Assembly: GCA_900457075.1 (NCBI GenBank)
Contig: UGYN01000002.1
Span: 5,208,001 to 5,272,000 of the forward strand
Reading direction: 5' to 3'
DNA from: Serratia quinivorans
GTDB taxonomy: Bacteria; Pseudomonadota; Gammaproteobacteria; Enterobacterales; Enterobacteriaceae
DNA: 64,000 nt
Of this stretch, positions 16,456 to 43,659 are shown piece by piece; position 1 is the first letter of the stretch; each line of letters opens with the position of its first letter. A program made the position numbers and the translations under genes. The notes under the pieces are model-generated. The model saw only the letters and a list, made by a program, of their open reading frames with translations, did not search any database and was not told the DNA's origin.

Positions 16456-16604
16456 CCTGAGTTCCCTGTATACAAACTGGGCTGACTATCCCATAGAATA
16501 GCCAAATCTTGCAGAGGTATTTTGGACTTGATAGCAAAGGGAGCTTTTCCCATGAAATGGCCAGGGCTTCAGATCTCAGTTTGTCATATAGGGAAGGAAA
16601 TAAA

Positions 16605-21924: not shown

Positions 21925-22144
21925 AAGGTCTCAGGCCACCGGGCGGCGATCGGGGCGCCTGACAATGACACGACTTCCCCACTAGCATAGTGCTTAAGTA
22001 GTTCATTCGCGGGGTGTGAATGCACTAGCTCCATGGGTGCAAATGAACCGGGACGTTCAGTGGTGCACAGCGGCAGACTGATTCTGTCGGTGCAGCGGAG
22101 TGCTGCGCGTACAACCACTTGTCCAGTAAATATAAGGAATAACA

Positions 22145-25588: not shown

Positions 25589-26602
25589 TCAACAAATGCG
25601 CGGCAAAGGTTCGGCATGCGGCAAATCCAGCAGGCGGCTGATGCCATAAGCGCCCTGCAGCCTCACTTGTCGTCCGGCAGTCACCCGGCCAATCAATGCC
25701 GCGGCCTTGCCCAGCGGATGCGCCTGTAACGCAGCCAGTACCGCCTGTTCGGCTTCCGGCGCGGCCACCACCACCAGCTTGCCCTCGTTGGCAAAGTTGA
25801 TGGCATCCAGCCCCAGCAACTCGCAAATCCCTCGCACTGCCGGCGCTATCGGTAACAGGTTCTCTTCAACTTCAATCCCCACGCCCGCCGCACGAGCAAA
25901 CTCATGCAAAATGGCGTTCACTCCACCACGGGTAGCATCGCGCATGGCTCGCACGCCGTTAATGCCACGCAATGGCGCGATCAATGGTGATAGCACCGCG
26001 CAATCGCTGACCACATCCAGCGACATGCCCAGCTTTTCCCGCAGATTGAGGATCGTCGCTCCGTGATCGCCGAGCGTACCGCTGACAATCACTGCGTCAC
26101 CGGCGCGGATATTTTGCGCTGCCCAATCCAGGCCCGGCGGGATCACCCCAATACCGGCGGTGTTGATAAACACTTTGTCGGCCGCGCCGCGCTGCACCAC
26201 CTTGGTATCCCCGGTCACAATGCGGATACCGGCCTGCTGCGCAGTGGCCGCCATCGAAGCCACCAGCCGTTGTAAATCAACCAACGGCAAACCTTCTTCG
26301 AGGATAAAACCGCAGGAAAGATAGCGCGGAAACGCGCCGCTGACCGCCAGATCGTTAGCCGTCCCGCAGACCGCCAGTTTGCCAATATCACCGCCCGGGA
26401 AGAAAATCGGGTCAATCACGTAGCTGTCGGTAGTAAACGCCAGCCGATCGCCCTGCTGGGTTAACTCGGCCAAATCCAACCGGGCCTGATCTTCACGTTG
26501 ATCCAGCAGCGGATTGGCAAAGGCCGGCAAGAAAATCTCATCCAGCAGTTGCTGCATCGCGCTGCCGCCGCTGCCGTGCGCCATAGTAATCACGTTATTC
26601 AT
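25589..26602 (-). CDS. hypE: HypE, thiocarbamate-to-cyanide maturase for [NiFe] hydrogenase
   Basis: 337 residues of the PurM/AIRS-like HypE family. The start MNNVITMAHGSGGSAMQQLL and the glycine-rich VSGTLGDHGATIL and DATRGGVNAILHEFA match. The C-terminus ends PRIC: the last Cys is the residue that HypF carbamoylates and HypE dehydrates to thiocyanate, source of the Fe-bound cyanide. The gene overlaps hypD by 4 bases in the hypABCDE operon. Confidence 0.95.
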   Translation of the reverse strand: MNNVITMAHGSGGSAMQQLLDEIFLPAFANPLLDQREDQARLDLAELTQQGDRLAFTTDSYVIDPIFFPGGDIGKLAVCGTANDLAVSGAFPRYLSCGFILEEGLPLVDLQRLVASMAATAQQAGIRIVTGDTKVVQRGAADKVFINTAGIGVIPPGLDWAAQNIRAGDAVIVSGTLGDHGATILNLREKLGMSLDVVSDCAVLSPLIAPLRGINGVRAMRDATRGGVNAILHEFARAAGVGIEVEENLLPIAPAVRGICELLGLDAINFANEGKLVVVAAPEAEQAVLAALQAHPLGKAAALIGRVTAGRQVRLQGAYGISRLLDLPHAEPLPRIC

Positions 26603-27726
26603 GCCGGGGTTTCCTCTGTTTCACGACGGTATTGGTACCAGGCGGCGCAGGCACCTTCCGAAGACACCATCAACGCGCCAAAAGCATTTTGCGGCGTACA
26701 GCCACCACCAAACAGCGGGCAGTCACGCGGTTTGCAACGCCCGGTCAGCACCTCTCCACAGCGGGCACGAGGATCGTCAGCCACCTGCCGGTGTTGCGGA
26801 CGGAAACGTCGTTCCGCATCAAAGGTGCTATAGGCCGGGGTTAAGGCAATGCCCGAATCAGCAATGGTGCCAAGGCCGCGCCATTCGCTGCCGCCGCCCA
26901 ACACAAAGACTTCGCTCATTGCCTGCTGTGCCAGCAGATTGCCCTGTTCAGGTACCACCCGGCGATATTGGTTTTCGGTTTGGCTCTGCTGCCCCACAAA
27001 CTGCTCAACCAGCATCATCACCCCTTGCAGGATATCCAGCGGTTCAAAGCCGGTCACCACCAGCGGTTTATGGTATTGCCGACTGATAAAGTGATACGGC
27101 GCGGTACCAATCACCATACTGACGTGGCCGGGTGCCAGAAAGCCGTCGATGCGGACATCCGGCTGTTGCAACAGGCTGCGCAAGGTGGGGATCAGGCTGA
27201 TGTGCTGGCAAAACACGCTGAAGTTATTCAACCCTTCCAGCCGGGCCTGCTGCAGGGTGATCGCCGTGACCGGCATGGTGGTTTCAAACCCCAGGGCAAA
27301 GAACACCACCTGCCGCTGCGGGTGTTGCCGCGCCAGCATCAGAGCATCCAACGGCGAGTAAACCACCCGCACATCGGCGCCGCGCTCGCGGGCCTGCAGT
27401 AAAGAGCCCTGTTTGCCCGGAACCCGCAACGCGTCGCCGAAGGTGCAAAAAATCACCTCCGGGTGAGCGGCGATTTCACAGCAGGCATCTATACGCCCCA
27501 TGGGCAACACACAAACCGGGCAGCCCGGTCCATGAATGAACTCAATCTGCGGCGGCAGTAGTTTATCCAGGCCAAAGCGGAAAATGGCATGGGTATGACC
27601 ACCGCACACTTCCATAATTTGCAACGGCCGCTCAGCGCTAAACGGCAACTGTGCGGCTCGCTGCCGAATATGCTGCAACAGGGTTTTTACCCGCTTCGGA
27701 TCGCGGAACTCATCAACGTAATGCAT
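26599..27726 (-). CDS. hypD: HypD, Fe(CN)2CO assembly scaffold
   Basis: 375 residues. Family marks are MEVCGGHTHAIFRFGLDKLL, FIHGPGCPVCVLPMGRID, the FALGFETTMP segment and the C-terminal 4Fe-4S Cys pattern (ARCGEVLTGRCKPRDCPLFG). With HypC it holds the iron while cyanide and CO ligands are attached. It overlaps hypC by 14 bases and hypE by 4, pointing to coupled translation. Confidence 0.95.
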   Translation of the reverse strand: MHYVDEFRDPKRVKTLLQHIRQRAAQLPFSAERPLQIMEVCGGHTHAIFRFGLDKLLPPQIEFIHGPGCPVCVLPMGRIDACCEIAAHPEVIFCTFGDALRVPGKQGSLLQARERGADVRVVYSPLDALMLARQHPQRQVVFFALGFETTMPVTAITLQQARLEGLNNFSVFCQHISLIPTLRSLLQQPDVRIDGFLAPGHVSMVIGTAPYHFISRQYHKPLVVTGFEPLDILQGVMMLVEQFVGQQSQTENQYRRVVPEQGNLLAQQAMSEVFVLGGGSEWRGLGTIADSGIALTPAYSTFDAERRFRPQHRQVADDPRARCGEVLTGRCKPRDCPLFGGGCTPQNAFGALMVSSEGACAAWYQYRRETEETPA

Positions 27727-28006
27727 GGTTGCCTTCCCCCGCCAAAAACAGCGCCACGTCCTGCTCCACTTCCCCCATCGCCTGCAGTGCCGAAAGCATC
27801 TCCTCGGCCTCTTGCCTGTCGAGCCGACTCATGGCGAAGCCGACGTGGATCAGCACCCAGCAGCCGATCATCGCTTCCCTGGGCTCACCCTCCTGGCGCA
27901 CCAGTGCAATATTCACTTCGCGCTGCACGCCACAGACTTCGGCCCAGGCATGCTGAGGCTGCTTTTCATCCAGCGCCACGATCTGCCCTGGAACGCCTAT
28001 GCACAT
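27713..28006 (-). CDS. hypC: HypC, hydrogenase maturation chaperone
   Basis: 97 residues from the ATG at 28006. The start [13 protein letters not shown] carries the essential Cys2 that binds iron after loss of the first Met. HypC shuttles the Fe(CN)2CO unit from HypD to the large subunit HycE. A longer frame upstream adds nine residues before the conserved start and is rejected. It overlaps hypB and hypD at its two ends. Confidence 0.93.
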
Positions 28007-28797
28007 AACTGTGTCTCCAGCCAGGCCAGCCACTGATCCATGCCTTCACCGCTGGTCGCCGAGAGGGTAATCACCTCAATCGTCGGGTTCACCTTGCGGG
28101 CATTGTCGATACAGGCTGCCAGGTCGAAGTTCAAATACGGCAGCAGATCGATCTTGTTCAGCAGCATCACCCGTGCAGCGGCAAACATATGTGGGTACTT
28201 AAGCGGTTTGTCTTCCCCTTCGGTAACCGACAGCACCGCTACCTTGTGGCGCTCCCCGAGATCAAAGCTGGCCGGGCAAACCAGATTGCCGACGTTCTCG
28301 ATAAACAACAGGCTGTGGGGTTTGAGTTCCAGACGCCGGGCGGCCTCGTTAACCATTTGCGCATCCAGATGGCAGCCTTTACCGGTATTGACCTGAATCG
28401 CCGGTACACCGGTGGCGCGGATACGTTCCGCGTCATTGGTGGTTTGCTGATCGCCTTCCACCACCGCGCACGGGTGCTGACCACGCAGCCGCAGCAGCGT
28501 TTCTGTCAGCAGCGTGGTTTTGCCGGAGCCGGGGCTGGAAACCAGATTCAGCGCCAGAATATGTTGGGCGGCGAAATACTGGCGATTACCCTCCGCCAGA
28601 CGATCGTTCTTATCCAGCACCCGGGTTTCAATTTCCAGCATCCGGCGCTGGCTGATACCCGGTGCATGGGTGCCTGCCAGCCCCAAACCGTAATGCAGAT
28701 CGCCCTGTACATTGCGTTGCGGACGGAATGGCACCTTCACATCCCCTTCAATGGTTAATTCACCCTGGGCACAACCGCAGGTACTGCACATATTCAT
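27997..28797 (-). CDS. hypB: HypB, GTPase for nickel insertion
   Basis: 266 residues (E. coli 290). The N-terminal nickel site [10 protein letters not shown] is present, then a G domain with Walker [29 protein letters not shown] and [13 protein letters not shown]. It works with HypA to load nickel into HycE. The linker between the Cys motif and the G domain is about 25 residues shorter than in E. coli and there is no His-rich nickel-storage stretch. It lies between hypA and hypC in the operon. Confidence 0.95.
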
Positions 28798-28806
28798 TCC
28801 CCTCTG

Positions 28807-29151
28807 TTATTCAATTTCCAGGCGTTTTATTTGCAAGCCATCGTCGGCCTGTACCCGCAGATTTCGTCCGGTACAGTGCGGACAGACCAGCACCTGCGGT
28901 ATCAGCAGCTCGACATCGCTCTGGCAGTCATGGCACCAACACTGCGCTTTCTGTTCCGCCAGATGCAGTTCGCAGCCTTCGGCCAGCGTGTCGCGGCACA
29001 CCATGTCAAAACAAAACCGCAGCGACTCCGCTTCAACGCAGGAAAATGCGCCAATCTCGAACCATACCGCGGTGATGCGTTGCGCATTATTTTGGCGAGC
29101 CTGTTGCTGCATTATTTCCATCGCATGTTGGCATAAGGTTATTTCGTGCAT
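28807..29151 (-). CDS. hypA: HypA, nickel metallochaperone
   Basis: 114 residues from the ATG at 29151, chosen because MHEITLCQHAMEIM is the conserved start with nickel ligand His2 and because the upstream sigma-54 promoter at 29196-29210 leaves no room for the longer frame. The zinc site is CWCHDC then CPHC. HypA delivers nickel to hydrogenase 3. Being first in hypABCDE next to hyc, it is HypA rather than HybF. Confidence 0.93.
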   Translation of the reverse strand: MHEITLCQHAMEIMQQQARQNNAQRITAVWFEIGAFSCVEAESLRFCFDMVCRDTLAEGCELHLAEQKAQCWCHDCQSDVELLIPQVLVCPHCTGRNLRVQADDGLQIKRLEIE

Positions 29152-29195
29152 CCGGCCTCCGTTAATGGCGATAAACGCGTTATTCCCTTCACGTT

Positions 29196-29210
29196 GCAAA
29201 TATGATGCCA
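29196..29210 (-). promoter_or_regulatory. Sigma-54 (-24/-12) promoter of hypABCDE
   Basis: On the minus strand the sequence TGGCATCATATTTGC fits TGGCAYR-N4-TTGC, with GG and GC elements 12 bases apart. It lies 45 bases upstream of the hypA start, as expected for the FhlA-activated hyp promoter. In E. coli the hyp operon has the same arrangement. Confidence 0.85.
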
Positions 29211-29341
29211 AGCCGCCAATGACATATTTGTCGAACCGACTGTCATCGTCAGTCATTAAATCAGTTATTCCCTAACGGATTGACGGATTAATTTAACTCT
29301 GATGATTGAATTAAAAGGAAATAATGTAATTTACCGGAATT

Positions 29342-29413: not shown

Positions 29414-29881
29414 ATGAGTACAATCAGTGAAGTAACCAGTCAGGCCGATTACATCGCCAACAAAAGCAATCGTCTGATGGCACAATGGCAGACCTACCAC
29501 AGCACTCTGGTCAAAGCGGTCACCACCACCAAAAAGAAGATTAATCATCAGTTTACCTACGGGCAGGAAAACGACCTGCGCTTTGTGCTGTTTAACCACT
29601 TTACGGTCAGCATCCAGTTGAGCGAAGGGTTTTACAGCCGGGATATTTGCTACCGGATTAATCTGGCCACGGCCCACGAGCCGGAAAACTTTGCCCCTTT
29701 CGCCCATGCCACGCTGGATGAAAACGGCAATATCGACGAAGTAATAAACAACCGCGACATGCAGGCGGTATTTGAACACTACCTGGATAAGATCGCCGTT
29801 ATTTATCAATGCCTGTTTGATTCCTTGCATGATGGTCACGCCATTCAAGACGCTCTGAAAAAAATAACCTTACCCGTCTGA
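29414..29881 (+). CDS. hycA: HycA, regulator of formate hydrogenlyase genes
   Basis: 155 residues (E. coli 153), first gene of the hyc operon. The phrases EVTSQADYIANKSNRLMAQW and VFEHYLDKIAVIYQCLFD match E. coli HycA. HycA counteracts FhlA and lowers expression of the formate regulon. I take the ATG at 29414, with GTGAGG upstream. It has no recognised DNA-binding motif. An array of inverted repeats separates it from hycB. Confidence 0.85.
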   Translation: MSTISEVTSQADYIANKSNRLMAQWQTYHSTLVKAVTTTKKKINHQFTYGQENDLRFVLFNHFTVSIQLSEGFYSRDICYRINLATAHEPENFAPFAHATLDENGNIDEVINNRDMQAVFEHYLDKIAVIYQCLFDSLHDGHAIQDALKKITLPV

Positions 29882-29898: not shown

Positions 29899-29955
29899 CG
29901 ACAGAAAACTGTCGAAGCGTCATTTTTTACTGACGATTTCGTCATAAATGACGAA
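29899..29955. promoter_or_regulatory. Cluster of inverted repeats between hycA and hycB, candidate FhlA sites
   Basis: Three symmetric elements lie in 57 bases: CGACAGAAAACTGTCG (29899-29914), TGACGATTTCGTCA (29931-29944) and TTCGTCATAAATGACGAA (29938-29955), the last two overlapping. E. coli has an FhlA binding region in the same hycA-hycB gap that aids hyc expression, so these are likely FhlA contacts. The role is inferred from position and recurrence of the TCGTCA half-site. Confidence 0.65.
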
Positions 29956-29968
29956 GCAAGGAGTGTGC

Positions 29969-30583
29969 ATGAACCGCTTTATTATTGCGGACCCTAAATT
30001 GTGTATTGGCTGCAATACCTGTATGGCCAGTTGTTCTGCGGAACATCGGCAATATGGATTGCAGTCATTACCCCGCCTGCAGGTGATTCGCAACGCTCGC
30101 GACTCTGCGCCGGCGATGTGCCACCAGTGTGAAGATGCCCCCTGCGCGCAGGTATGTCCGGTCAACGCTATTCGCCATCAGGATGACGCCATCGTACTGA
30201 ACGAAAGCCTGTGCATCAGTTGCAAGCTGTGCGGCATTGCCTGCCCGTTTGGTGCCATTGGTTTCGGCGGCAGCACCCCACTGGCGATCCCTGCGGACTG
30301 CAACACCTCGCTGGCATTGCCTGCGCCCAAAGCACCACGCCCAATCAGCCCCTTCCTGGATTGTGTGCCCGGTGTCCGTGCCGTGGCGGTGAAGTGCGAT
30401 CTCTGTGACTTCAGCCCCGAAGGCCCCGCCTGTATCCGCACCTGTCCAACCCAGGCGATCCGGCTGGTGACCGACCGAGACGTGCGCAACGCCAGCGAAC
30501 AGAAAAGGCGCAATGCGATGCAGGCGCTCAGCGCCGAGTTGCCGTTTGCGGCCGTCCCTGGATCCCAGAAGGAGCCAAATTGA
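29969..30583 (+). CDS. hycB: HycB, polyferredoxin linking formate dehydrogenase H to hydrogenase 3
   Basis: 204 residues (E. coli 203) with four 4Fe-4S cluster motifs: CIGCNTCMASC, CHQCEDAPCAQVC, CISCKLCGIAC and CDLCDFSPEGPACIRTC. It carries electrons from FdhF to the hydrogenase small subunits on the cytoplasmic face of the inner membrane. The ATG at 29969 has AAGGAG upstream and gives MNRFIIADPKLC, shared with HydN. It overlaps hycC by one base (TGATG). Confidence 0.93.
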   Translation: MNRFIIADPKLCIGCNTCMASCSAEHRQYGLQSLPRLQVIRNARDSAPAMCHQCEDAPCAQVCPVNAIRHQDDAIVLNESLCISCKLCGIACPFGAIGFGGSTPLAIPADCNTSLALPAPKAPRPISPFLDCVPGVRAVAVKCDLCDFSPEGPACIRTCPTQAIRLVTDRDVRNASEQKRRNAMQALSAELPFAAVPGSQKEPN

Positions 30584-32451
30584 TGATATATGCCCTGTTG
30601 CCCGACCCGTTGTTACTGCTGACTTCGGCCCTGGTCGGGTATTTACTCTGCGCCCTGTTGGGCTGGCTACTGGCCCCCTGGTCGCGTGTCAGCACTTTGT
30701 TGAGCGGCGTTACCTTAATCTGTGCCGTCGCTACCCTGCTGGCCGCGGTGCAAATACTGTTTGCCCCACTGCACAGCGCCCGTTTGCCGTGGCTGCATTA
30801 CGCGGTGGAAATCAGTGGCCTTAACGCCCTGTTACTGCTGGTGATGGCTCTGTGCGGGGTCTTTGCCGCGCTGCATCACGCCGGTAGCTTATCCAGGCTG
30901 AACCCGCGTGCTCGCGGCCGATTGGCTGGCTTAAGCAACCTGATGCTAGCGGCCTTAAGCGCTGCGGTGATGGCCGATAATGCCCTGGCCTTGCTGTTGC
31001 TGCTGGAGTTAGCGGCGCTTTGCGGCTATTTCCTGATTGTCCATGCCCCAAGCGCTAAAAGCCTGCGTGCCGGACATAGCCAGTTCTTGCTGATGCGCTC
31101 AGGCACCCTGTTGTTGGTTGTCGCCTTCGCACTGATCTATTGCCATAGCCACAGCCTGCAGTTCAGCGTGATCCGCGCTACGCCACTGCCGGATGCATTG
31201 CGTAATGCGGTATTCCTGCTGGCGCTGGCCGGGTTTGGCATTTTTGCCGGGCTGATGCCGTTACATGCCTGGGTGCCACAATCCCATAGCAGTGCGCCCG
31301 CCTCCGCCGCCATGTTGTTTTCCAGCGCGCTGATGAAGGTCGGCCTGCTGGGCATCCTGAAAATAGGGCTGGATCTGCTGGGTACGCCGCCGCTGTGGTG
31401 GGGATTACTGGTCTTGCTACTGGCTGCCGGTACGGCTTTCTTCGGCGGGCTGTACGCGCTGATGGAGCACGATCTGCGCCGCTTGCTGGCTTACCACACG
31501 CTGGAGAACATCGGCATTATCCTGCTGGGCATCGGGGGCGCAATGGTCGGTACGGCGCTGCAACAGCCGTTATTGACCGCCTTCGCCCTGATTGGTGGCC
31601 TGTTCCACCTGCTGAATCACAGCCTGTTTAAAAGCGCATTGCTGCTGGCAGCCGGCGCCATTGAACAACAGACCGGGCTGAAAGACATGGAGAAAATGGG
31701 CGGTTTGGCGCGGCTGATGCCCTGGACCGCCGTTTCTTTGCTGATTGGCCTGGTGGCGATGGCCGCATTACCGCCGTTGAACGGTTTTGCCAGTGAATGG
31801 TTGATCTACCAGGGACTGTTCCACTTCAGCGCGGCACCCGGTTTTATTGGCCATCTGTTTGGCCCGCTGCTGGCGGTGGCATTAGCCCTGACCGGTGCGC
31901 TGGCGGTGATGTGCGTCAGCAAAGTGTTTGGCGTGGCTTTTCTGGGCGCTCCGCGCTGCGACGCTGCAGCAAACGCGGTTCAGGCCAATGTTTGGCTGAC
32001 GCTAAGCCATGCGCTGCCGGCTCTGTTGTGTCTGGTTTGCGGTCTGGGTGCGCCCTGGATCATTCCACTGTTTGCCCGCCTGATCGGCCTGACGTCCGAA
32101 CAGGCGCTCTCCTTGTCCGATACGCTGGTTTCCACCCCGCTGATCGCCATTTTATTGCTGGCGATGCCGCTACTGCCGTTGTTGATCGCGGCGCGTTACC
32201 AGACGCGTCGGCAACCTCGGCGGGTACAAGGCAGCGCCTGGGCCTGTGGTTATGGGCATGAGGACGCGATGGTGATCACCGCCACCGGTTTTGCTCAACC
32301 GTTGCGAGTGATGTTTGCCCCACTGTATCAACTGCGCCGCTGGCTACCGGGATCCTTCGGTGACCGGTTACACCGTAACGCATTCGTTGCCTTCTGCCGC
32401 GGTCTGGCCGCCGTAGAGTTGGCGGTGCTGCTGGTCGTGGCTTTTGCCTGA
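30583..32451 (+). CDS. hycC: HycC, hydrogenase 3 membrane subunit (NuoL/Mrp antiporter-like)
   Basis: 622 residues (E. coli 608) with about 16 hydrophobic segments. The antiporter-like core shows MPLHAWVPQSHSSAPASAAM, ALMKVGLLGILKIGLDLLG, RRLLAYHTLENIGIILLG and HLLNHSLFKSALLLAAGAIE, matching NuoL/NuoN-type subunits. It anchors hydrogenase 3 in the inner membrane and may move protons. The ATG at 30583 is preferred to the TTG three bases before it. Confidence 0.93.
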   Translation: MIYALLPDPLLLLTSALVGYLLCALLGWLLAPWSRVSTLLSGVTLICAVATLLAAVQILFAPLHSARLPWLHYAVEISGLNALLLLVMALCGVFAALHHAGSLSRLNPRARGRLAGLSNLMLAALSAAVMADNALALLLLLELAALCGYFLIVHAPSAKSLRAGHSQFLLMRSGTLLLVVAFALIYCHSHSLQFSVIRATPLPDALRNAVFLLALAGFGIFAGLMPLHAWVPQSHSSAPASAAMLFSSALMKVGLLGILKIGLDLLGTPPLWWGLLVLLLAAGTAFFGGLYALMEHDLRRLLAYHTLENIGIILLGIGGAMVGTALQQPLLTAFALIGGLFHLLNHSLFKSALLLAAGAIEQQTGLKDMEKMGGLARLMPWTAVSLLIGLVAMAALPPLNGFASEWLIYQGLFHFSAAPGFIGHLFGPLLAVALALTGALAVMCVSKVFGVAFLGAPRCDAAANAVQANVWLTLSHALPALLCLVCGLGAPWIIPLFARLIGLTSEQALSLSDTLVSTPLIAILLLAMPLLPLLIAARYQTRRQPRRVQGSAWACGYGHEDAMVITATGFAQPLRVMFAPLYQLRRWLPGSFGDRLHRNAFVAFCRGLAAVELAVLLVVAFA

Positions 32452-32461
32452 GGAGATAACG

Positions 32462-33397
32462 ATGACCTATCCCTATGTGTTACTCGGTTTGCTGCAGGCC
32501 CTGCTGTTACTGGCTGTTGCCCCGCTGTTTGCCGGCATCAGCCGGGTGCTGCGTGCCCGCATTCATACCCGACGCGGCCCCGGCGTATTACAGGAATACC
32601 GTGATATCGCCAAACTGCTGAAGCGCCAAAGCGTGGCGCCGGGTGCTTCCGGCCTGGCTTTTCGCGCCATGCCTTACTTACTGACCGGCACCTTGCTGGC
32701 CATCGCCTGTGCACTGCCGATGCTGACTACTGCCTCACCGCTGCCTGCTATCGGTGATGTGATCACCCTGATCTATCTGTTCGCCGTGGTGCGCTTTGTG
32801 TTTGCCATTGCCGGGCTGGATACCGGCAGCCCCTTCACCGCTATCGGTGCCAGCCGTGAGGCAGTGTTAGGCATTCTGGTCGAACCGATCCTGTTGCTGG
32901 GTCTGTGGGTGACGGCGCTGGTCGCCGGTTCTACTCAACTCAGCGCCATGGTGCAAAGCCTGCTGGGCTTGCCGCATCACGCCTGGCTGCCACTGCTGTT
33001 GGCCAGTTTGGCCTGCGCGTTCGCCACCTATATCGAAATGGGCAAGCTGCCGTTCGACATGGCAGAAGCCGAACAAGAGCTGCAGGAAGGCCCGCTGACG
33101 GAATATTCCGGCGTCGAGCTAGGCATTATCAAATGGGGCATCAGCCTCAAGCAACTGGTGGTGCTGCAACTGTTCCTCGGCGTGTTCCTGCCCTGGGGCC
33201 AGGCGGCACAGCTCACTGCCCCGCAGCTGTTGACTGGACTGGTGCTGGCGCTGTTCAAGCTGTTGTGTGCGGTGGTGCTGATCGCGGTTCTCGAAAATAG
33301 CGTGGCACGTTTGCGCTTCCTCAAGACGGGCCGTACCACCTGGGCCGGTTTTGGGCTGGCTTTTCTGGCGCTGGTTTCCTGGCTGGTCGTCGGCTGA
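32462..33397 (+). CDS. hycD: HycD, hydrogenase 3 membrane subunit (NuoH-like)
   Basis: 311 residues (E. coli 307), about 8 hydrophobic segments. The NuoH-type loop appears as RIHTRRGPGVLQEYRDIAKL and the membrane-arm contact as TYIEMGKLPFDMAEAEQELQ. It joins the soluble [NiFe] module to the membrane. The ATG at 32462 follows GAGGAG, with 10 bases after the hycC stop; an in-frame TTG at 32444 lies inside hycC and is rejected. Confidence 0.93.
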   Translation: MTYPYVLLGLLQALLLLAVAPLFAGISRVLRARIHTRRGPGVLQEYRDIAKLLKRQSVAPGASGLAFRAMPYLLTGTLLAIACALPMLTTASPLPAIGDVITLIYLFAVVRFVFAIAGLDTGSPFTAIGASREAVLGILVEPILLLGLWVTALVAGSTQLSAMVQSLLGLPHHAWLPLLLASLACAFATYIEMGKLPFDMAEAEQELQEGPLTEYSGVELGIIKWGISLKQLVVLQLFLGVFLPWGQAAQLTAPQLLTGLVLALFKLLCAVVLIAVLENSVARLRFLKTGRTTWAGFGLAFLALVSWLVVG

Positions 33398-33419
33398 ACA
33401 ATGATTAAGGCAATCAATA

Positions 33420-35123
33420 ATGACTAACGAACATCAAGGCCAGCACTATCTGGCGGCGTTGCAGCAACAATTCCCCGCTGCCATGCTGGCAGCAGAATGG
33501 CAAACGGCCGACCAACTGACGGTGACCGTCAAACTCAACGCGCTGCCAGAAGTGGTGGAATGGCTGTATTACCAACAGGGCGGCTGGTTGTCGGTGCTGT
33601 TTGGTAACGACGAACGCACGCTGTGTGGCAATTACGCGCTGTATTACGTGCTGTCGATGGAGCAAGGCACCAAATGCTGGATCACGGTACGGGCCGAGGT
33701 TGACGCCCAAACGCTGGAGTTCCCTTCCGTTACGCCACGGGTGCCTGCTGCCGTCTGGGGTGAACGCGAAGTGCGCGATATGTATGGCCTGCGCCCGATC
33801 GGTTTGCCGGATGAACGCCGGTTGGTGCTGCCGGACGACTGGCCGGACGATCTCCATCCGTTACGCAAAGACGCCATGGATTATCGTCAACGGCCCGCGC
33901 CTACCACCGATGTGGAAACCTATCCGTTCCAGAGCCTGGCCGGCAGTAAAGCCAACGTGGTGCCGATCGGCCCGTTGCATATCACCTCGGATGAACCCGG
34001 GCATTTCCGCCTGTTCGTCGACGGCGAAGACATCATTGATGCCGACTATCGGCTGTTCTACGTCCACCGTGGCATGGAGAAACTGGCCGAAACCCGCATG
34101 GGTTACAACGAAGTGACCTTCCTGTCGGACCGGGTGTGCGGCATTTGCGGTTTTACCCACAGCGTGGCGTACACCAGTTCGGTGGAGAACGCGATGGGCA
34201 TCCAGGTGCCGGAACGCGCCCAGATGATCCGCTCAGTGCTGCTGGAAGTGGAACGCCTGCACAGCCATCTGCTGAATCTGGGGCTGGCCTGCCATTTCGT
34301 CGGTTTCGACTCCGGTTTTATGCAGTTCTTCCGGGTGCGCGAACAGTCGATGAAGATGGCGGAGATCCTGACCGGTGCACGCAAAACCTATGGTTTGAAC
34401 CTGATTGGCGGCATCCGTCGCGACATTATGAAAGACGACATGCTGCAAACCCTGCGGCTGGCGGCGCAAATGCGCAGTGAGTTGGTGGATCTGGTCGATA
34501 TCTTGCTCAGCACGCCGAATACCGAACAGCGCAGCGTCGGGGTTGGCCGGCTCGATCCGCAGGTGGCTCGCGACTACAGCAACGTCGGCCCGATGATCCG
34601 CGGCAGCGGCCACCGCCGCGATACCCGTATCGACCATCCCTTTGCCGGTTACGCCAAACTGCCGGTGGAACTGTGCGTAGAGGACGGCTGCGACGTCTAC
34701 TCCCGCCTGAAGGTGCGCATTCATGAAGTGTTCAACTCGCTCGGCATCATCGAGTTCGGTCTGCAAAGCCTGCCGAGCGGGCCGCTGGCGGTGGATGGGT
34801 TCACCTATATTCCACACCGCTTTGCCCTGGGCTTTGCCGAAGCGCCGCGCGGTGACGATATTCACTGGAGCATGACCGGCGACAACCAAAAACTGTTCCG
34901 CTGGCGCTGCCGTGCCGCGACCTACGCCAATTGGCCAACCCTGCGTTACATGCTGCGCGGCAACACGGTTTCCGACGCTCCGCTGATCATCGGCAGCCTG
35001 GATCCCTGCTATTCCTGTACCGATCGCATGACCATCGTCGACGTGCGCAAGCGCCAGTCCATCATAGTGCCGTACAAAGAGATTGAGCGTTATGGCATCG
35101 AACGGAAAAACAAACCGTTCTAA
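33420..35123 (+). CDS. hycE: HycE, hydrogenase 3 large [NiFe] subunit
   Basis: 567 residues (E. coli 569). A NuoC-like N-terminal domain (about 1-165) is fused to the NuoD/[NiFe] large-subunit domain. The nickel ligands are in RVCGICGFTHS and in DPCYSCTDR. After that Arg there is a 31-residue tail (MTIVDVRKRQSII to ERKNKPF) that HycI should remove once nickel is in place. This is a group 4a energy-linked hydrogenase that evolves H2 from formate electrons. All catalytic cysteines are intact and no frame break is seen. Confidence 0.96.
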   Translation: MTNEHQGQHYLAALQQQFPAAMLAAEWQTADQLTVTVKLNALPEVVEWLYYQQGGWLSVLFGNDERTLCGNYALYYVLSMEQGTKCWITVRAEVDAQTLEFPSVTPRVPAAVWGEREVRDMYGLRPIGLPDERRLVLPDDWPDDLHPLRKDAMDYRQRPAPTTDVETYPFQSLAGSKANVVPIGPLHITSDEPGHFRLFVDGEDIIDADYRLFYVHRGMEKLAETRMGYNEVTFLSDRVCGICGFTHSVAYTSSVENAMGIQVPERAQMIRSVLLEVERLHSHLLNLGLACHFVGFDSGFMQFFRVREQSMKMAEILTGARKTYGLNLIGGIRRDIMKDDMLQTLRLAAQMRSELVDLVDILLSTPNTEQRSVGVGRLDPQVARDYSNVGPMIRGSGHRRDTRIDHPFAGYAKLPVELCVEDGCDVYSRLKVRIHEVFNSLGIIEFGLQSLPSGPLAVDGFTYIPHRFALGFAEAPRGDDIHWSMTGDNQKLFRWRCRAATYANWPTLRYMLRGNTVSDAPLIIGSLDPCYSCTDRMTIVDVRKRQSIIVPYKEIERYGIERKNKPF

Positions 35124-35135
35124 CCGGAGCCCATC

Positions 35136-35681
35136 ATGCTGAAACTGATTAAAAAAGTGCTGAAAACCGGCCCGGCCACCGTCGCCTATCCGAGCCAGCC
35201 GTTGGTTGTAGACCCCAACTTTCGTGGCAAGCCCGAATACAACCCGCAGCAATGTATTGCCTGCGGGGCCTGTGCCAACGCTTGCCCATCCAATGCGTTG
35301 AGTATGACCACCGATCTGCCCCGCGGCACGGTGCGCTGGCAGCTGTTTCTCGGGCGCTGCATCTTCTGCGCCCGCTGTGAAGAAGTTTGCCCCACCGCCG
35401 CCATCCGTCTTTCACAGCAGTTCGAGCTGGCAGTGTGGCGTAAAGAAGACTTATACGAGCAGGCCGACTTTGCCATCTGCCATTGCCGTCAATGCGGCAA
35501 AGCCTATGCGTCGCAGAAGGAAATTGACTATGCCATGGCGCTGCTCGGGCTAAGCAGTACAGAAACCGCCACACGCCGCACGCAGTTTGAAACCTGCCCG
35601 GCGTGCAAACAGCAGCAAAACCTGACTCAGGCCGATCGCATTGACGTTGGCCGCCATTTGACCCGGGAGATCATCTCATGA
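35136..35681 (+). CDS. hycF: HycF, hydrogenase 3 ferredoxin subunit (NuoI-like)
   Basis: 181 residues (E. coli 180) with two 4Fe-4S motifs, [12 protein letters not shown] and [12 protein letters not shown], as in NuoI. A further Cys-rich pair near the C-terminus (CHCRQCGK and CPACK) could hold zinc. It passes electrons between HycB and HycG. It overlaps hycG by 4 bases (ATGA). Confidence 0.94.
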
Positions 35682-36475
35682 ATCCGCCACTGATTGGCCC
35701 ACGCGACGAAAATGGCCTGCCGGTGCCGATCACCCTCGACGAAAGTATCGCCAAGCTGAAAACCACCTTACTGCAGGATATCCGCCGCTCGGCCTATGTT
35801 TATCGCGTGGACTGCGGCGGGTGCAATGGCTGCGAAATTGAGATTTTCGCTGCCGTTTCCCCGTTGTTCGACGCCGAACGCTTCGGTATCAAAGTGGTTC
35901 CTTCACCCCGCCATGCCGATATTTTGCTGTTTACCGGGGCGGTCACCCGCGCCATGCGTATCCCGGCGATCCGCGCCTGGCAGGCTTCGCCCGATCCGAA
36001 AATCAGCATCTCTTACGGTGCCTGCGGCAACAGCGGTGGCATTTTCCACGATCTCTACTGCGTATGGGGCGGCACCGATCGCATCGTACCGGTTGATGTC
36101 TATATCCCCGGCTGCCCCCCGACGCCGGCCGCCACCATTTATGGCTTTGCCATGGCACTCGGCCTGTTGGATCAGAAAATCAAAGGCCGTCAGCATGACG
36201 AAACCCAGGGCGAGGCCACCCGCCTGTTGCACCCGGCATTACCTCAGCCGCTGCGGGTGCTGCTGGATCGCGAAGCCCGGCGGATGGCCGGTTATCGCTA
36301 TGGCCGCCAGATCGCCGACCAGTTTATGCAACTGTTGGCCGCAGACAGCCCATTGCCGGTCGAACAGCGCATTAGCGCCTACCTGCAACAGCAGGACGAT
36401 ATGCGTTTAAGCGAGATTGTCGGCAACCTGCTGGGGATCTATCAACGGGTACTGCGAGGGGAACTGCGACTATGA
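35678..36475 (+). CDS. hycG: HycG, hydrogenase 3 small subunit (NuoB-like)
   Basis: 265 residues (E. coli 255). The proximal cluster ligands appear in [26 protein letters not shown] and [14 protein letters not shown]. With HycE it forms the catalytic heart of the H2-evolving enzyme. The C-terminal 80 residues are more divergent. It overlaps hycH by 4 bases. Confidence 0.95.
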
Positions 36476-36888
36476 GCCACTCCCATGCCCAGGTGGTGTT
36501 CTACTCCCTGAGCCGCAAATTCGTGCAAGAGAAAAAGGCCCCGCCGAAAGCCCAGGAGGTGATCTATTACAGCCTGGCGATTGGCCACCATCTTGGCGTC
36601 ATCGACTGTCTGGAAGCCAAACTCAGCTGTCCGCTGGCCGGTTTCCGCGCCTGGGTACAACAACTGCCCGCGGCCAGCACCGCCCGGCGCAAGCTGGAAG
36701 GGGTCGATCGCTTCGGTGAAATCTGTATCGACAGTAGCCATACCCACCTGCTGGCCACCGCGTTAAGCGCTGCCGCCCCGCAAATGAACCCCCAACAGCA
36801 AGACTGGAGCCAACAGTTGATCGCCCTGCTGCAGTCGATTGAAAACGAACCCGCCATCTACCTGATGGTCCGGAGGCATGATGACTGA
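36472..36888 (+). CDS. hycH: HycH, formate hydrogenlyase assembly protein
   Basis: 138 residues (E. coli 136). The start [20 protein letters not shown] and the [20 protein letters not shown] region match E. coli HycH, which is needed to convert the HycE precursor but is not part of the final complex. Its end overlaps the hycI start region. Confidence 0.9.
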
Positions 36889-37351
36889 CGTTTTATTGTG
36901 TGTAGGCAACTGCATGATGGGCGATGACGGCGCCGGCCCGCTACTGGCAGAGCTCTGTGCCGGCAATCCCCCCGCCGGCTGGACGGTGATCGACGGCGGA
37001 GCCGCACCGGAAAATGACATTGGGCATATCCGCGAACTGCGCCCTGCGCGGCTGGTGATTGTCGATGCCACCGACATGGGACTGGCTGCGGGAGAAACCC
37101 GGGTGATTGATGAAAAAGACATTGCCGACATGTTCATCATGACCACCCATAACCTGCCGCTGAATTTCTTGATCGATCAACTGCGCGAAACGGTGCCGGA
37201 AATCACCTTTATCGGCATTCAGCCTGAGGTGGTGGCGTTTTACTACCCGATCGGCGCCGCGGTACGCCGTGCGGTGACCACCCTGCACCAACGGCTACAT
37301 GACTGGCCAATAAATGGCGGTTACCCGCCACTGGTGGTGACGAATGTCTGA
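36881..37351 (+). CDS. hycI: HycI, HycE-specific maturation endopeptidase
   Basis: 156 residues, exactly the E. coli length from the ATG at 36881 ([10 protein letters not shown]), which I prefer to the ATG directly before it because of the GGAGG at 36872-36876. Family marks are GDDGAGPLLAE, VIDGGAAPENDI, IVDATDMG and the His in MTTHNLPLNF. The Asp and His residues contact nickel in the substrate. It cuts HycE after the Arg of DPCYSCTDR. Confidence 0.94.
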   Translation: MTDVLLCVGNCMMGDDGAGPLLAELCAGNPPAGWTVIDGGAAPENDIGHIRELRPARLVIVDATDMGLAAGETRVIDEKDIADMFIMTTHNLPLNFLIDQLRETVPEITFIGIQPEVVAFYYPIGAAVRRAVTTLHQRLHDWPINGGYPPLVVTNV

Positions 37352-37451: not shown

Positions 37452-37513
37452 GTAACCCAAGGCACAACCTATCCATAGTCATACCCGGATGAAGGGTAAC
37501 TCAGGAGTTATTG

Positions 37514-38056
37514 ATGAACCGGTTTATCATCGCCGATCCCAAGAAATGCATCGGCTGCCGTACCTGTGAAATTGCCTGCGTGATGGCACACAGCGAAAAC
37601 CAGGATATTTCAGCGCTCAACGCCGCCAGCTTCGCCCCACGGCTGCATGTGATCAAAGGCGTTAACGTCAGCACTGCCGTACTGTGCCGCCAGTGTGAGG
37701 ACGCGCCTTGCTCCAACGTTTGCCCCAATGGGGCGATTAGCCGAACCAACGGCATGGTGCTGGTGATGCAGGAGCGCTGCATCGGCTGCAAAACCTGCGT
37801 GGTGGCCTGTCCTTACGGCGCGATGGAAGTGGTCACCCGCCCGGTTGTCCGCCAGAACGGCGCCGTGATGAGTGCCACCACCGAGAAAGCCGAAGCCCAT
37901 AAATGCGACCTGTGCATCGGTCGTGATAGCGGCCCGGCCTGTATGCAAACCTGCCCGACCAATGCGTTGCACTGTGTGGATCGCAACATGCTGCAAGAAA
38001 TGAACGCCGAGAAACGCCGTCGCGCCGCGCTCGACACCCTGTCGTCACTGTTTTAG
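37514..38056 (+). CDS. hydN: HydN, 4Fe-4S electron-transfer protein linked to formate dehydrogenase H
   Basis: 180 residues (E. coli 175) with four ferredoxin-type motifs: CIGCRTCEIAC, CRQCEDAPCSNVCP, CIGCKTCVVACP and CDLCIGRDSGPACMQTCP. The phrase HVIKGVNVSTA and the C-terminal AEKRRRAALD match HydN. It is needed for full FdhF activity. It differs from HycB by the conserved second half. fdhF begins 11 bases after its stop, so they form one unit. Confidence 0.93.
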   Translation: MNRFIIADPKKCIGCRTCEIACVMAHSENQDISALNAASFAPRLHVIKGVNVSTAVLCRQCEDAPCSNVCPNGAISRTNGMVLVMQERCIGCKTCVVACPYGAMEVVTRPVVRQNGAVMSATTEKAEAHKCDLCIGRDSGPACMQTCPTNALHCVDRNMLQEMNAEKRRRAALDTLSSLF

Positions 38057-38067
38057 GAACTGAACCG

Positions 38068-40227
38068 ATGAAAAAAATCACAACCGTCTGCCCATACTGC
38101 GGTGCAGGCTGCAAAATGAAACTGGTGGTCGACAACGGCAAAATCATCCGCGCCGAGGCGGCTGACGGCGTGACCAATCAGGGCGAACTATGCCTGAAAG
38201 GCTATTACGGCTGGGACTTTCTCAACGACACCAAACTGCTGACCCCACGTCTGAGCCAGCCGCTGATCCGCCGTGAAAAAGGCGGCAAGTTTGAGGCCGT
38301 CAGTTGGGATGAGGCCATTAGCTACACCGCGCAGCGGCTACAGCAGATCAAGGATAAACACGGCGCCAGCGCCATCATGCACACCGGTTCTTCACGCGGC
38401 ACCGGCAATGAAACCAACTACGTGATGCAGAAGTTTGCCCGTGCGGTAGTCGGCACCAACAACGTCGACTGCTGCGCCCGCGTCTGTCATGGCCCGTCGG
38501 TAGCGGGTTTGCAAGCCACGCTGGGCAACGGCGCGATGAGCAACTCGATTGGCGATATCGAAAACTCCAAATGCCTGCTGGTCATCGGTTACAACTGTGC
38601 CGATTCGCATCCTATCGTGGCTCGCCGGGTGCTGAAGGCCAAAGAGAAAGGCGCGCAAATTATCGTCTGCGACCCACGCCGTATCGAAACCGCGCGCATT
38701 GCCGACCAGCATTTGCAGATCAAAAACGGCTGTAATATGGCGCTGGTGAATGCCTTCGCCTATACGCTGATTGAAGAAAATCTGTATGACCGCGACTACG
38801 TGGCGAAATACACCGAAGGTTTCGAGGCTTACCGCCAGCAGTTAGCGGATTACGCACCGGAAGCGGTAGAACAGCTGACCGGCGTCAGCGCCCAGCAAAT
38901 TCGCCAGGCGATGCGCACCTACGCCAGTGCCCCTTCCGCCACCATCATGTGGGGCATGGGAGTCACCCAGTTCGGTCAGGCGGTCGACGTGGTCAAAGGG
39001 CTCGCCAGCCTGGCCTTGCTGACCGGTAATCTGGGCCGGCCCAACGTGGGGGTTGGCCCGGTGCGTGGGCAGAACAACGTTCAGGGTGCCTGTGATATGG
39101 GCGTGCTGCCCAATGAGTTCCCAGGTTATCAGGCGGTCACCGACGCCGCGGTACGCGCCAAGTTCGCCGCCGCCTGGGGGTATCGACGCCGCCAGGATGG
39201 ACCCGGAAGTCGGTTACCGCATCACCGAGATCCCGCATTTGGTGCACGAAGGCAAAGTGAAGGCCTACTACATCATGGGGGAAGATCCGTTACAGACCGA
39301 AGCCGATCTGAGCCTGGTGCGCGGCGCGTTCGAAGCGCTGGAGTTTGTGGTAGTGCAAGACATCTTTATGACCAAAACCGCTGAACAGGCCGATGTGATC
39401 CTGCCAGCCACCTCCTGGGGTGAGCATGGCGGCGTGTTCTCCTGTGCCGATCGCGGCTTCCAGCGTTTCGAGAAGGCCATTGAACCGCAGTACAACGTCA
39501 AACGCGACTGGGAGATCATCAGCCTGCTGGCCACCGAGATGGGCTATCCGATGCATTACGACGATAACCAGCAAATCTGGGATGAAATGCGTGAGCTTTG
39601 CCCGCTGTTTTATGGGGCCACCTACGAAAAAATGGGTGAACTGGGCCATGTACAATGGCCTTGTACCACGCTGGAAAGTCAGGGCACTCCTTACCTGTAT
39701 CAGGGCAACCAGTTCACCACCCCGACCGGTAAAGGCCAGCTGTTCGCCACCACCTGGCGTGCTCCGGCGGAAGTGCCGGATGCAGATTATCCGCTGGTGC
39801 TCTGTACCGTGCGTGAAGTCGGCCACTATTCCTGCCGCTCGATGACCGGTAACTGTGCCGCGCTGCAAACCCTGGCGGATGAACCCGGCTTTTGTGCAGA
39901 TCAATCCACAGGACGCCGAAGCGCTGGGTATTGCCGATCAGCAACTGGTGTGGGTCAGCTCGCGCCGTGGCAAGGTGATCAGCCGTGCCAACTATAACGA
40001 GCGTATTAACCTGGGCGCGGTGTATATGACCTACCAGTGGTGGATCGGTGCCTGTAAACGAGCTGACTCAGGAGAATTTGGACCCGATCTCCAAAACGCC
40101 GGAAACCAAATATTGCGCGGTAAAACTGGCGGCAATTAGCGATCAGCACTGGGCGGAAAACTACGCGCAACAGAGCTACAGCGATATGAAGGCCCGCCTG
40201 CGTCGCGCAGCAGAAGATGTGATGTAA
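38068..40227 (+). CDS. fdhF: Formate dehydrogenase H with Cys in place of selenocysteine (three frameshifts in the read sequence)
   Basis: Molybdenum bis-MGD enzyme that oxidises formate to CO2 in the FHL complex. It has the N-terminal 4Fe-4S motif [12 protein letters not shown] and E. coli FdhF phrases throughout ([58 protein letters not shown]). In the active-site loop [13 protein letters not shown] the codon at the Sec140 position is TGT, Cys. Each of three breaks is one extra base: G-run 39176-39180, T-run 39890-39893, A-run 40056-40058. Repair gives 718 residues (E. coli 715) ending LRRAAEDVM. It follows hydN and precedes hypF. Confidence 0.93.
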
Positions 40228-40241
40228 AGTTGCACTGTCAC

Positions 40242-40305
40242 TTTGTAGAGGGGCGAAGGAATTCGCCCCGATTCACCCGGGCGCAGCATACAGCGCCCCT
40301 ACAAA
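40242..40305. repeat. Palindromic extragenic element with two inner hairpins
   Basis: Outer arms TTTGTAGAGGGGCG (40242-40255) and CGCCCCTACAAA (40294-40305) pair with two unpaired bases. Inside are GGGGCGAA/TTCGCCCC (40250-40269) and GGGCGC/GCGCCC hairpins, so the element can fold as a nested or branched structure. It looks like a REP- or MITE-type intergenic repeat. I cannot test copy number from this window. Confidence 0.6.
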
Positions 40306-40326
40306 AACCACAGAGAGTAATAAAAA

Positions 40327-42626
40327 GTGTCCCATTCAGGATTACTGCTGCGCATCAGCGGCAAGGTACAGGGCGTCGGCTTCCGGCCTTTTGTCTGGCA
40401 AACTGGCCGAACAGCTCAACCTGCGTGGTGAAGTCTGGAACGACAGCGCCGGGGTGGAAATTCGCCTGGTGCAACCTGTCGATCTTGAGATACTCCTGCA
40501 CGTATTACATCACCAGGCGCCACCGTTGGCACAAATCGAACGCATTCAGCAGCGTTCGTTTACCTGGTTGCAAGCCCCCCACCGATTTCAGTATCCGCCC
40601 CAGCCAAAGTGGCGCCATGGCAACCCAGATCGTGCCGGATGCCGCGACCTGCCCACAGTGTCTGCAGGAAATGAACGATCCGCAGGATCGGCGTTACCGT
40701 TATCCCTTTATCAACTGCACCCATTGCGGCCCGCGCTTTACCATTATTCGCGCCATGCCATACGATCGCCCGGCAACCAGCATGGCGCCCTTCACTCTCT
40801 GTCCGCACTGCGCCTGGGAATACCATTCTGCGCAGGACCGACGTTTTCATGCCCAACCGGTGGCCTGTAGCGATTGCGGCCCACAGCTGTTTAGCTGTCT
40901 GGCGCCAGGGCAGTCGCAGCATCTGGGGGATGAAGCGTTGCAGCAGGCCGTTGCTGCGTTGGCTGCCGGGCAGATTGTGGCGATCAAAGGCCTGGGCGGT
41001 TTTCACCTGGCCTGCGACGCCACCAACACTCAGGCCGTCGAACGGCTGCGCCTGCGTAAACGGCGGCCGGGCAAACCACTGGCGGTGATGCTGCCGGATG
41101 CCGGCTGGCTGGTACGCTGCGTAAGGGGCGTTAGCCTGGCGCAATTACAGGCATTGTTAACTTCACCCGCCGCGCCTGTGGTGCTGGTCCCCCAATCCCC
41201 TTACTCGCCGCTGTCTGCCGCCGTGGCTCCGGGGTTGGATGAAGTCGGCCTGATGTTGCCTGCCAACCCGATTCAACATTTATTGATGCAGGCGATACAG
41301 CGCCCCCTGGTGATGACATCAGGCAATGCCGCTGGCCGTGCTCCGGCGTTAACCAATGAGCAGGCATTGGCTGATTTGGTCGACATTGCCGATCTGTGGC
41401 TGATGCACGATCGCGAGATCTTGCAACGCGCAGACGACTCGCTGGTGCGTTTGCTCCCCAAAGGCCATGAAATGCTGCGCCGGGCGCGCGGGTTCGTTCC
41501 CGACGCCCTGCCGCTGCCGCCCGGTTTCCCTGCTCAGCAGGCCTTGTTGGCGGTGGGCGGCGATCGCAAAAATACCTTTTGCCTGGTTCAGGGAAATCAG
41601 GCCCTGCTCGGCCCGCACTTTGGCGATTTGGAGCAAGAGGATATTCAGCAACAGTGGCAACAGGCCATCAGGCACTTCACCGGGTTATACCATTGCCAGC
41701 CGCAGCGGCTGGCCAGCGATGCCCATCCCGGTTATGTCAGCCACCAATGGGCGGCCCGGCAGTCGCTGCCGGTGACCCCGGTGCTGCATCATCATGCGCA
41801 CCTGGCCGCTTGCCTGGCCGAGCACCGTTGGCCACTGGAAGGCGGTGCCGTGATCGGCCTGGCGCTGGATGGTCTCGGTTATGGTCAAGGCGGCGCCCTG
41901 TGGGGCGGCGAGTGTCTGCTGGTTGATTACCGCCGCTGTCGTCATCTGGGGGGATTGCCCGCGGTGGCGCTGCCCGGTGGCGATCTTGCGGCTCAGCAAC
42001 CCTGGCGCAATCAGTTGGCGCACTTCGCGCGCTTCGTACCGGACTGGCAAAGCTACCCTCAGGCCGAACGGCTGTTGGCTTCCCCATGGCGACCGCTGCT
42101 GCAAGCGATTAAGGCCGGTATTAATGCCCCGCTGGCCTCCTCCTGTGGCCGCTTGTTTGATGCTGCCGCCGCCACCCTGGGCTGTGCTCCGACACAACAA
42201 AGTTGGGAAGGTGAAGCAGCCAGCCGGTTTGAGGCGCTGGCGCACCAAAGTGGGCCTTGCCCACACCCGGTGACATTGTCACTGACAGACGAGCAATTTG
42301 ATCTTGCCGCGTTCTGGCAGCGCTGGCTGGCCTGGCAAGCGCCCGCCCCGCAACAGGCCTGGGCCTTTCACGATGCGCTGGCGCAGGGTTTTGCCAGTTT
42401 GGCCAAGCATTTTGCCCTGCAGTATGGCATTGGCCATGTGGCGTTGAGCGGCGGTGTGCTGCATAACCGCCTGCTGCGTCAACGCCTGCAGCACCATCTG
42501 GCCCCTTTGCAGATACTGCTGCCACAGCAACTGCCTGCAGGTGATGGCGGGCTGGCGCTGGGCCAGGCGCTGGTCGCTTGTGCCCAACATTCTCCGGCTT
42601 CTTCTTCCACCTTTGACAGGACCTGA
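40327..42626 (+). CDS. hypF: HypF, carbamoyltransferase for hydrogenase cyanide ligands (two frameshifts in the read sequence)
   Basis: About 765 residues (E. coli 750). Domains in order: acylphosphatase (about 5-90, [17 protein letters not shown]), two zinc fingers (CPQC...CTHC and CPHC...CSDC, about 105-185), a YrdC-like carbamoyl-adenylate domain (about 200-380), and a Kae1-like domain with [14 protein letters not shown] and [14 protein letters not shown]. It makes the carbamoyl group that HypE converts to cyanide. The start is the GTG at 40327. Two extra bases break the frame, at 40400-40402 (A-run) and 40575-40580 (C-run). Confidence 0.92.
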
Positions 42627-42627
42627 C

Positions 42628-43659
42628 ATGGTAAACCGCGAGTTTTTCCGCACCCATACCCGCGCCTTTTGGCTATTACTGGCGCTGGTGGCGCTAAACC
42701 TGTTGGCCTGGGGAGCGGCTTTTGCCGCATTCCATCACTACCCGGCGTTAATCGCTGCCGCTTTGCTGGCTTATGGCTACGGGCTGCGTCATGCGGTAGA
42801 TGCCGATCATATCGCCGCTATTGATAACGTCACCCGCAAACTGATGCAGCAAGGCCAGCGCCCGGTTTCCGTCGGCGCATTCTTCTCTTTGGGCCACTCC
42901 AGCATTGTGATCCTGGCCTGCATCGCCATTGCCGCCACTTCATTGGCATTTGGCGATCGTATTGGCTGGCTGCATCAGTACGGCGCGACACTGGGCACGC
43001 TGATCTCCTCGCTGTTCCTGTTGGCCATGGCGCTGTTGAACTGGCTGATTTTCCGTGATGTTTACCGAATTTTCCGCCAGGTGAAACGCGGGGAAAAACT
43101 GGTGGAACAAGATGTCGCCCTGCTGGTTAACGGGAGCGGCGGCGTGATGACACGTCTGTATCGCTTCGCTTTTAATCTGGTGAATAAAAGCTGGCATATG
43201 TATCTGGTCGGCTTTTTATTTGGCCTGGGTTTTGACACCGCCACCGAAGTCGGCCTGTTGGGCATCTCCGCAGCCGGTGCCACTTCCGGCCTGTCGGTCT
43301 GGTCGATTATGTTGTTCCCGTTGCTGTTCGCCAGCGGCATGGCGTTGATTGACTCGCTGGATAATTTTGTGATGGTCGGCGCTTATGGCTGGGCCTTCAA
43401 TAAACCGATCCGCAAGCTGTATTACAACATGACCATTACCGCCACCAGCGTGGCTATTGCTCTGGTGATCGGTGGCCTGGAAGGTTTGGGGTTGTTGGTC
43501 GACAAACTTGGGTTACAAGGCGGGCTGTGGCGCGGTGTTGAAGTCCTCAATGACCATATGGGCAACGTGGGTTACGCCGCTATCGCATTATTTGTGGTGC
43601 TGTGGGCGTTGTCCGCGCTGAATTACCGCCGCAAAAACTATGACTCGCTGACCCTCTAG
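42628..43659 (+). CDS. NiCoT-family nickel/cobalt permease
   Basis: 343 residues with about 8 membrane segments. The NiCoT signatures are all present: RHAVDADHIAAIDN, FSLGHSSIV, and GFLFGLGFDTATEVGLLG. It imports Ni2+ (or Co2+) with high affinity, like HoxN and NixA. It starts two bases after the hypF stop, so it is co-expressed with the hydrogenase maturation genes and supplies nickel for HycE. Longer frames inside hypF are rejected because homology begins at MVNREFFRTH. Confidence 0.9.
   Translation: MVNREFFRTHTRAFWLLLALVALNLLAWGAAFAAFHHYPALIAAALLAYGYGLRHAVDADHIAAIDNVTRKLMQQGQRPVSVGAFFSLGHSSIVILACIAIAATSLAFGDRIGWLHQYGATLGTLISSLFLLAMALLNWLIFRDVYRIFRQVKRGEKLVEQDVALLVNGSGGVMTRLYRFAFNLVNKSWHMYLVGFLFGLGFDTATEVGLLGISAAGATSGLSVWSIMLFPLLFASGMALIDSLDNFVMVGAYGWAFNKPIRKLYYNMTITATSVAIALVIGGLEGLGLLVDKLGLQGGLWRGVEVLNDHMGNVGYAAIALFVVLWALSALNYRRKNYDSLTL

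Follow-up and report, generated by a model that had tools for sequence, protein, structure and literature searches.

The locus described here raises the question of whether a formate dehydrogenase H (FDH-H) with Cys at the position of selenocysteine (Sec) in the Escherichia coli enzyme is an ordinary working part of a formate hydrogenlyase (FHL), and whether an organism encoding such an enzyme has dispensed with selenium. We addressed both points in a 64,000-nucleotide stretch of Serratia quinivorans (contig UGYN01000002.1, positions 5,208,001 to 5,272,000; hereafter the window), together with the remainder of the genome and a sample of the family. Our analyses lead us to conclude, with high confidence, that the fdhF gene of the window encodes a Cys FDH-H of ordinary kind, working in a Hyd-3-type FHL, and that the gene is probably intact.

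The fdhF gene occupies 38068..40227 on the forward strand, with an ATG start at 38068, and its codon 140 (38485-38487) reads TGT, for Cys, where the E. coli K-12 gene has TGA, for Sec, within the same active-site loop; without an in-frame TGA at this codon, the product is no selenoprotein FDH-H. Residues 1-383 of the product align without gaps to PDB 1aa6, the E. coli FDH-H (E = 4.7e-181), a match that covers the molybdopterin-binding N-terminal part and establishes the sequence relationship to FdhF. The 13-residue loop, encoded by 38470-38508, differs from 1aa6 at residue 140 only, so that the first-pass annotation was right both in reading TGT at the Sec140 position and in describing the surrounding residues as those of E. 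coli FdhF. A misread TGA is implausible because Cys is also encoded at codon 140 in S. grimesii (TGT, L033) and in the congener G170 (TGC), which answers the call of that annotation for a check of the codon in relatives.

Its further statement that the gene has no TGA and needs no SECIS element agrees with our searches: the Rfam family SECIS_2 scored 29.1 bits at codon 140, below the gathering score of 70, compared with 87.1 bits for E. coli fdhF as a positive control in the same test. The 29-bit score might reflect either a vestigial element or ordinary resemblance between coding sequences. SECIS_2 and SECIS_3 are the suitable Rfam families here, unlike RF00031, which gave no match, nor any in 14 controls (0/14), and is uninformative, as are the single-strand folds 3′ of codon 140 (z-score 0.02 in the window and −1.40 in E. 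coli). The FDH-H model TIGR01591 matches fdhF in three pieces lying in separate frames (531.4, 274.7 and 44.5 bits), none of which exceeds the cut-off of 666.25 because of frame changes in the assembled gene.

The proposal that fdhF is an FHL component is supported by its surroundings, where hyp, hyc, hydN, fdhF and hypF form one locus. The reverse strand carries fhlA, encoding the formate-responsive activator (23434..25498; NF011958, 993.2 bits, cut-off 830), and the hydrogenase maturation genes hypE, hypD, hypC, hypB and hypA (25589..29256; HypE, HypD, HypB and HypA models over their cut-offs, hypC by tblastn). On the forward strand lie a hycA-like stretch (29420..29827; 37.5% to E. coli HycA), the genes hycB-C-D-E-F-G-H-I for Hyd-3-type FHL subunits, an assembly protein and a protease (29948..37351; HycF, HycH and HycI models over cut-off), and the ferredoxin-like gene hydN directly 5′ of fdhF (37511..38056; NF007658, 332.9 bits, cut-off 260; 72% by tblastn). 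They are joined on the same strand by hypF, for the hydrogenase maturation carbamoyltransferase (40324..42626; TIGR00143, 751.4 bits, cut-off 466.1; start placed from homology), and by a HoxN/HupN/NixA-family nickel transporter gene (42454..43659; TIGR00802, 393 bits, cut-off 333.05, from residue 103 on), whose ORF overlaps the end of hypF and whose true start is probably further in. The hycC-like product scores best with the HycC model PRK08042 (562.5 bits, cut-off 727), ahead of the HyfB model (526.7 bits), and remains below cut-off with both. With hycB to hycG present, two membrane subunits (C and D) and no hyfD, hyfE or hyfF between C and E, the system is therefore of the Hyd-3 (FHL-1) type. 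A second FhlA-like stretch (61710-62516, reverse strand, 39% to E. coli FhlA) lies inside an ORF at 61686-63473.

In the assembly fdhF is not one open frame. It carries frame changes near 39.18, 39.89 and 40.06 kb, all downstream of codon 140, which is unaffected; hypF has at least two, between about 40.40 and 40.58 kb, and fhlA has one near 23.8 kb. The first-pass annotation had overlooked the breaks in all three genes. Taken at face value, they would mean that the strain is losing its FHL pathway, with fhlA, fdhF and hypF as genuine young pseudogenes and the Cys codon in a dead gene. Such a loss would fit the concentration of breaks in three genes of one pathway, and also their higher density inside the window, where 9 of 34 genes are broken against 13 of 115 in the remainder of a 304-kb chromosomal region. 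Elsewhere in the genome only one of 57 conserved genes, thiF, has a frame change (58 E. coli genes were tried; argG was absent from the stretches fetched). Two more of these genes, rpsG and folP, had been flagged for in-frame stops, which in both cases are the ends of the proteins. Additionally, of three further genomes sampled from the genus, two (G025 and G254) gave no FdhF match at E ≤ 1e-140; the trait is therefore patchy within the genus, as it would be if lost in some congeners.

We nevertheless consider loss of the pathway improbable. Unrelated genes are broken too: compared with relatives, nine window genes carry frame changes, namely fhlA, fdhF (38068-40224 in this comparison), hypF (40288-42620 likewise) and six others (3483-4257, 12872-13804, 15916-16675, 20418-21972, 22145-23114 and 44616-46486), which amounts to 9 of 35 non-overlapping genes, or to the 9 of 34 given above when longer ORFs and one relative are used. 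Over the full 304 kb, 22 of 149 genes are affected, compared with far fewer (5 of 152) in the matching 280 kb of G170. Selection on the codons of fdhF also looks odd for a decayed gene, with dN/dS values relative to G170 of 0.013 upstream of the first break and 0.026 downstream of it, the corresponding values relative to S. grimesii being 0.014 and 0.031, and no stops; as estimated from these two comparisons, the frame pieces are under strong purifying selection. A near-identical protein of 718 residues, from another contig (P0002), is encoded in one open frame and matches the window pieces at 100% over 371, 99.6% over 238 and 100% over 56 residues; a fourth piece reaches only 85% over 67 residues because its alignment extends past a frame change. 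The majority of the frame changes sit at short single-base runs, a pattern typical of sequencing error. Because the breaks are assembly-wide, codon selection is intact and an intact near-identical protein exists, sequencing error in the assembly is the most likely cause of the frame changes in fdhF, hypF and fhlA, and fdhF is probably intact in the cell. Broken copies of these three genes in an error-rich assembly thus give no warrant for calling hydrogen production lost, and other findings from this window that are based on broken genes should be handled with care.

As a working gene, fdhF would supply the formate-oxidising arm of the FHL-1 that its neighbours hyc, hydN and hyp encode, under the control of fhlA. 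Homology to 1aa6 suggests that Cys140 replaces Sec as a ligand of the molybdenum centre, so that the FHL complex could form without selenium. The enzyme is predicted to be active. The lower turnover suggested by the first-pass annotation agrees with two reports that put the Cys variant of E. coli FDH-H at about 20-fold less active (PMC3349551, PMC6004506); a natural Cys enzyme may have adapted. The Cys140 FdhF of Pectobacterium atrosepticum is described as driving formate-dependent H2 production (PMC7384014), and for S. plymuthica, deletion of hycE is stated to abolish stationary-phase deacidification (PMC4340222).

Alternatively, the Cys enzyme might not be the FHL partner at all and might instead serve another electron acceptor via HydN, given that fdhF adjoins hydN outside the hyc operon proper and that E. 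coli FdhF, according to PMC7384014, is only loosely attached and could function in other places. We regard this role as highly unlikely: the same paper reports that deletion of the Cys-type fdhF of P. atrosepticum lowers H2 about 500-fold, and no other FdhF for the hyc complex was found in the genome. A second, Sec-containing fdhF serving the complex, which the first-pass annotation had raised, was looked for with E. coli FdhF as the query and yielded no match in the genome at E ≤ 1e-250, while all other genome matches to TIGR01591 score below fdhF. The runner-up of that search (L002) presumably resembles assimilatory nitrate reductase, and another match (L004) we take to be of the YdeP type.

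With fdhF assigned to FHL, the wider claim that the Cys form frees the system from selA, selB, selC and selD stands only in part. The fdhF product itself needs no Sec decoding, whereas the organism keeps the machinery: selA (610.3 bits, cut-off 267.9), selB (706.7 bits, cut-off 242.25), tRNA-Sec (80.1 bits, cut-off 47; ARAGORN also finds a tRNA-SeC with anticodon tca) and selD (446.5 bits, cut-off 125) all score over their cut-offs, so that none of the four genes whose absence would mark a selenium-independent organism is missing. Near 2.15 Mb, moreover, the genome encodes an FdnG/FdoG-type formate dehydrogenase with the motif NQARVUHGP and an in-frame TGA, accompanied by a SECIS_3 match of 84.3 bits (gathering score 63). 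Because these sel genes and the TGA- and SECIS-bearing formate dehydrogenase are present, the Cys codon frees FHL, not the organism, from selenium; the organism still decodes Sec, for this separate, respiratory type of formate dehydrogenase. A search for TGA in an active-site context found three places in the genome, one of them this gene, compared with two for the reversed control. The 5′ side of the same gene carries an FdoG1 5′ UTR thermometer (RF02778; L031 12346-12569, 75.2 bits, gathering score 50). A Cys codon in the formate dehydrogenase of FHL does not, then, imply a selenium-free organism, and both chemistries occur in one genome.

To place the Cys form in the family, we sampled 295 genomes, of which 145 have an FdhF match at E ≤ 1e-140, and classed them from searches with the window fdhF and with E. 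coli FdhF over the same genomes. On the 220 of 221 matches covered (one of G216 was left out), 38 of the 145 genomes have only window-type copies without a stop at this codon; in 63 a copy of this kind occurs together with a TGA copy; a further 42 carry TGA copies but no window-type copy; and in the remaining two the sole copy is of the E. coli type and lacks TGA. The lack of a stop was read directly as Cys in L113-L142 and L159-L163 and is inferred elsewhere. G050 is counted among the 42 though it also carries an E. coli-type Cys copy, and G042 among the 38 although it also has E. coli-like pieces whose starts lie beyond codon 140. Over residues 1-370, among the matches listed, identity to the window is 70-100% for window-type copies without a stop and 68-71% for TGA copies, and the best 30 matches (L113-L142, the window's own included) have Cys at 140 in 30 of 30 cases. 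Sec machinery is often gone from the 38 genomes with window-type copies only: 28 have no selA match, and the ten with selA include G170 and the present genome, which retains the machinery.

A quick, unrooted tree of 75 rows groups the window with 34 others in a clade that is entirely Cys (35 rows in total; SH-aLRT 100) and requires at least four changes of state between Cys and Sec. This tree left out L113 (the window's second record), the overlapping L144, L072 (match too short), the partial second copy of L058, the third copy of L059 (44% identity) and loci below 54% identity. Both hydN and hypF lie within 1.5 kb of fdhF in 27 of 29 loci with short flanks from the set L113-L142, the window's own excluded; of the two exceptions, L121 has hydN only and L139 has neither. 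Named loci with the Cys form include S. grimesii and Pantoea agglomerans, with hyc genes, as well as Yersinia massiliensis and a Serratia marcescens record, with hyf genes. From the tree and these gene neighbourhoods, the Cys form is an old lineage and the norm across a large clade, where fdhF most often sits between hydN and hypF. The wording of the first-pass annotation suggests instead a recent change from Sec to Cys confined to the present lineage. Single changes of this kind do occur, as in the E. coli-type fdhF genes of G034, G050 and G230 (84-87% to E. coli) with TGT at 140, but such a recent event is refuted to near certainty by the position of the window gene deep inside the all-Cys clade, by the Cys shared with S. 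grimesii and G170, and by an identity of only 68-71% to the nearest TGA copies among the matches listed over residues 1-370. Those three E. coli-type TGT loci (L161 in G034, L159 in G050 and L160 in G230) represent Sec-to-Cys changes apart from the window clade, and G050 additionally carries a TGA copy (L164). Two metagenome bins of Bacillota have a Cys FdhF next to an FdhF-like frame that contains TGA (L059, 7637-8746 and 10001-11110; L058, 2243-3135 and 4451-5560, with the TGA copy of L058 in two pieces).

The first-pass annotation implied a notable local departure from the Sec form; being the norm across a large clade and already in print for Serratia liquefaciens, the Cys form is no such departure. 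In that species, PMC6004506 describes hydN-fdhF as one transcriptional unit and an FDH-H with Cys for Sec, and proteins under the name S. liquefaciens share 97-98% identity with the window FdhF over residues 1-370; the window gene differs in its frame changes in the assembly. P. atrosepticum FdhF (ECA1250), of FHL-2, likewise has Cys140 and is encoded with a hydrogenase cluster (PMC7384014), whereas its partner is Hyd-4 (hyf) and, according to PMC3349551 and PMC7384014, its genome is without Sec machinery, in contrast to the Hyd-3-type partner and the Sec machinery of the window genome. PMC3349551 also notes missing sel genes and Cys enzymes for two plant pathogens. E. coli FdhF belongs to the same fold family and is set apart by Sec140, its SECIS element and its stand-alone gene; in E. 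coli K-12, the gap between hydN and hypF is 152 bp (L158 5427-5578) with no fdhF inside, at a site where many relatives have a Cys-type fdhF. Sec/Cys pairs and Sec-to-Cys conversions are also described for Cys-containing FdhA homologues in PMC1794560, a general selenoproteome survey whose passages on the subject do not deal with this locus. Among bacterial species that possess FHL genes, over 50% are said to use a Cys-dependent enzyme (PMC7384014). A Cys FDH-H next to hydN in Serratia is thus an already known, common variant (PMC6004506, PMC7384014), to which the present analysis adds the counts across genomes and the caution about the assembly.

Following from these distributions, we tentatively suggest that in enterobacteria the Cys-type fdhF between hydN and hypF may be a dedicated selenium-independent FHL enzyme, with the stand-alone Sec-type gene of E. 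coli encoding an additional one alongside. The two might form a selenium-responsive pair where both occur, and the bare hydN-hypF interval of E. coli could mark the site where the Cys gene was lost. This paired arrangement is possible, although we hold it with less than even confidence. A Sec-independent FDH-H is also useful for engineering, as pointed out in PMC7384014. For the family, the 63 of 145 genomes that carry both forms constitute a natural test of why formate dehydrogenases keep Sec.
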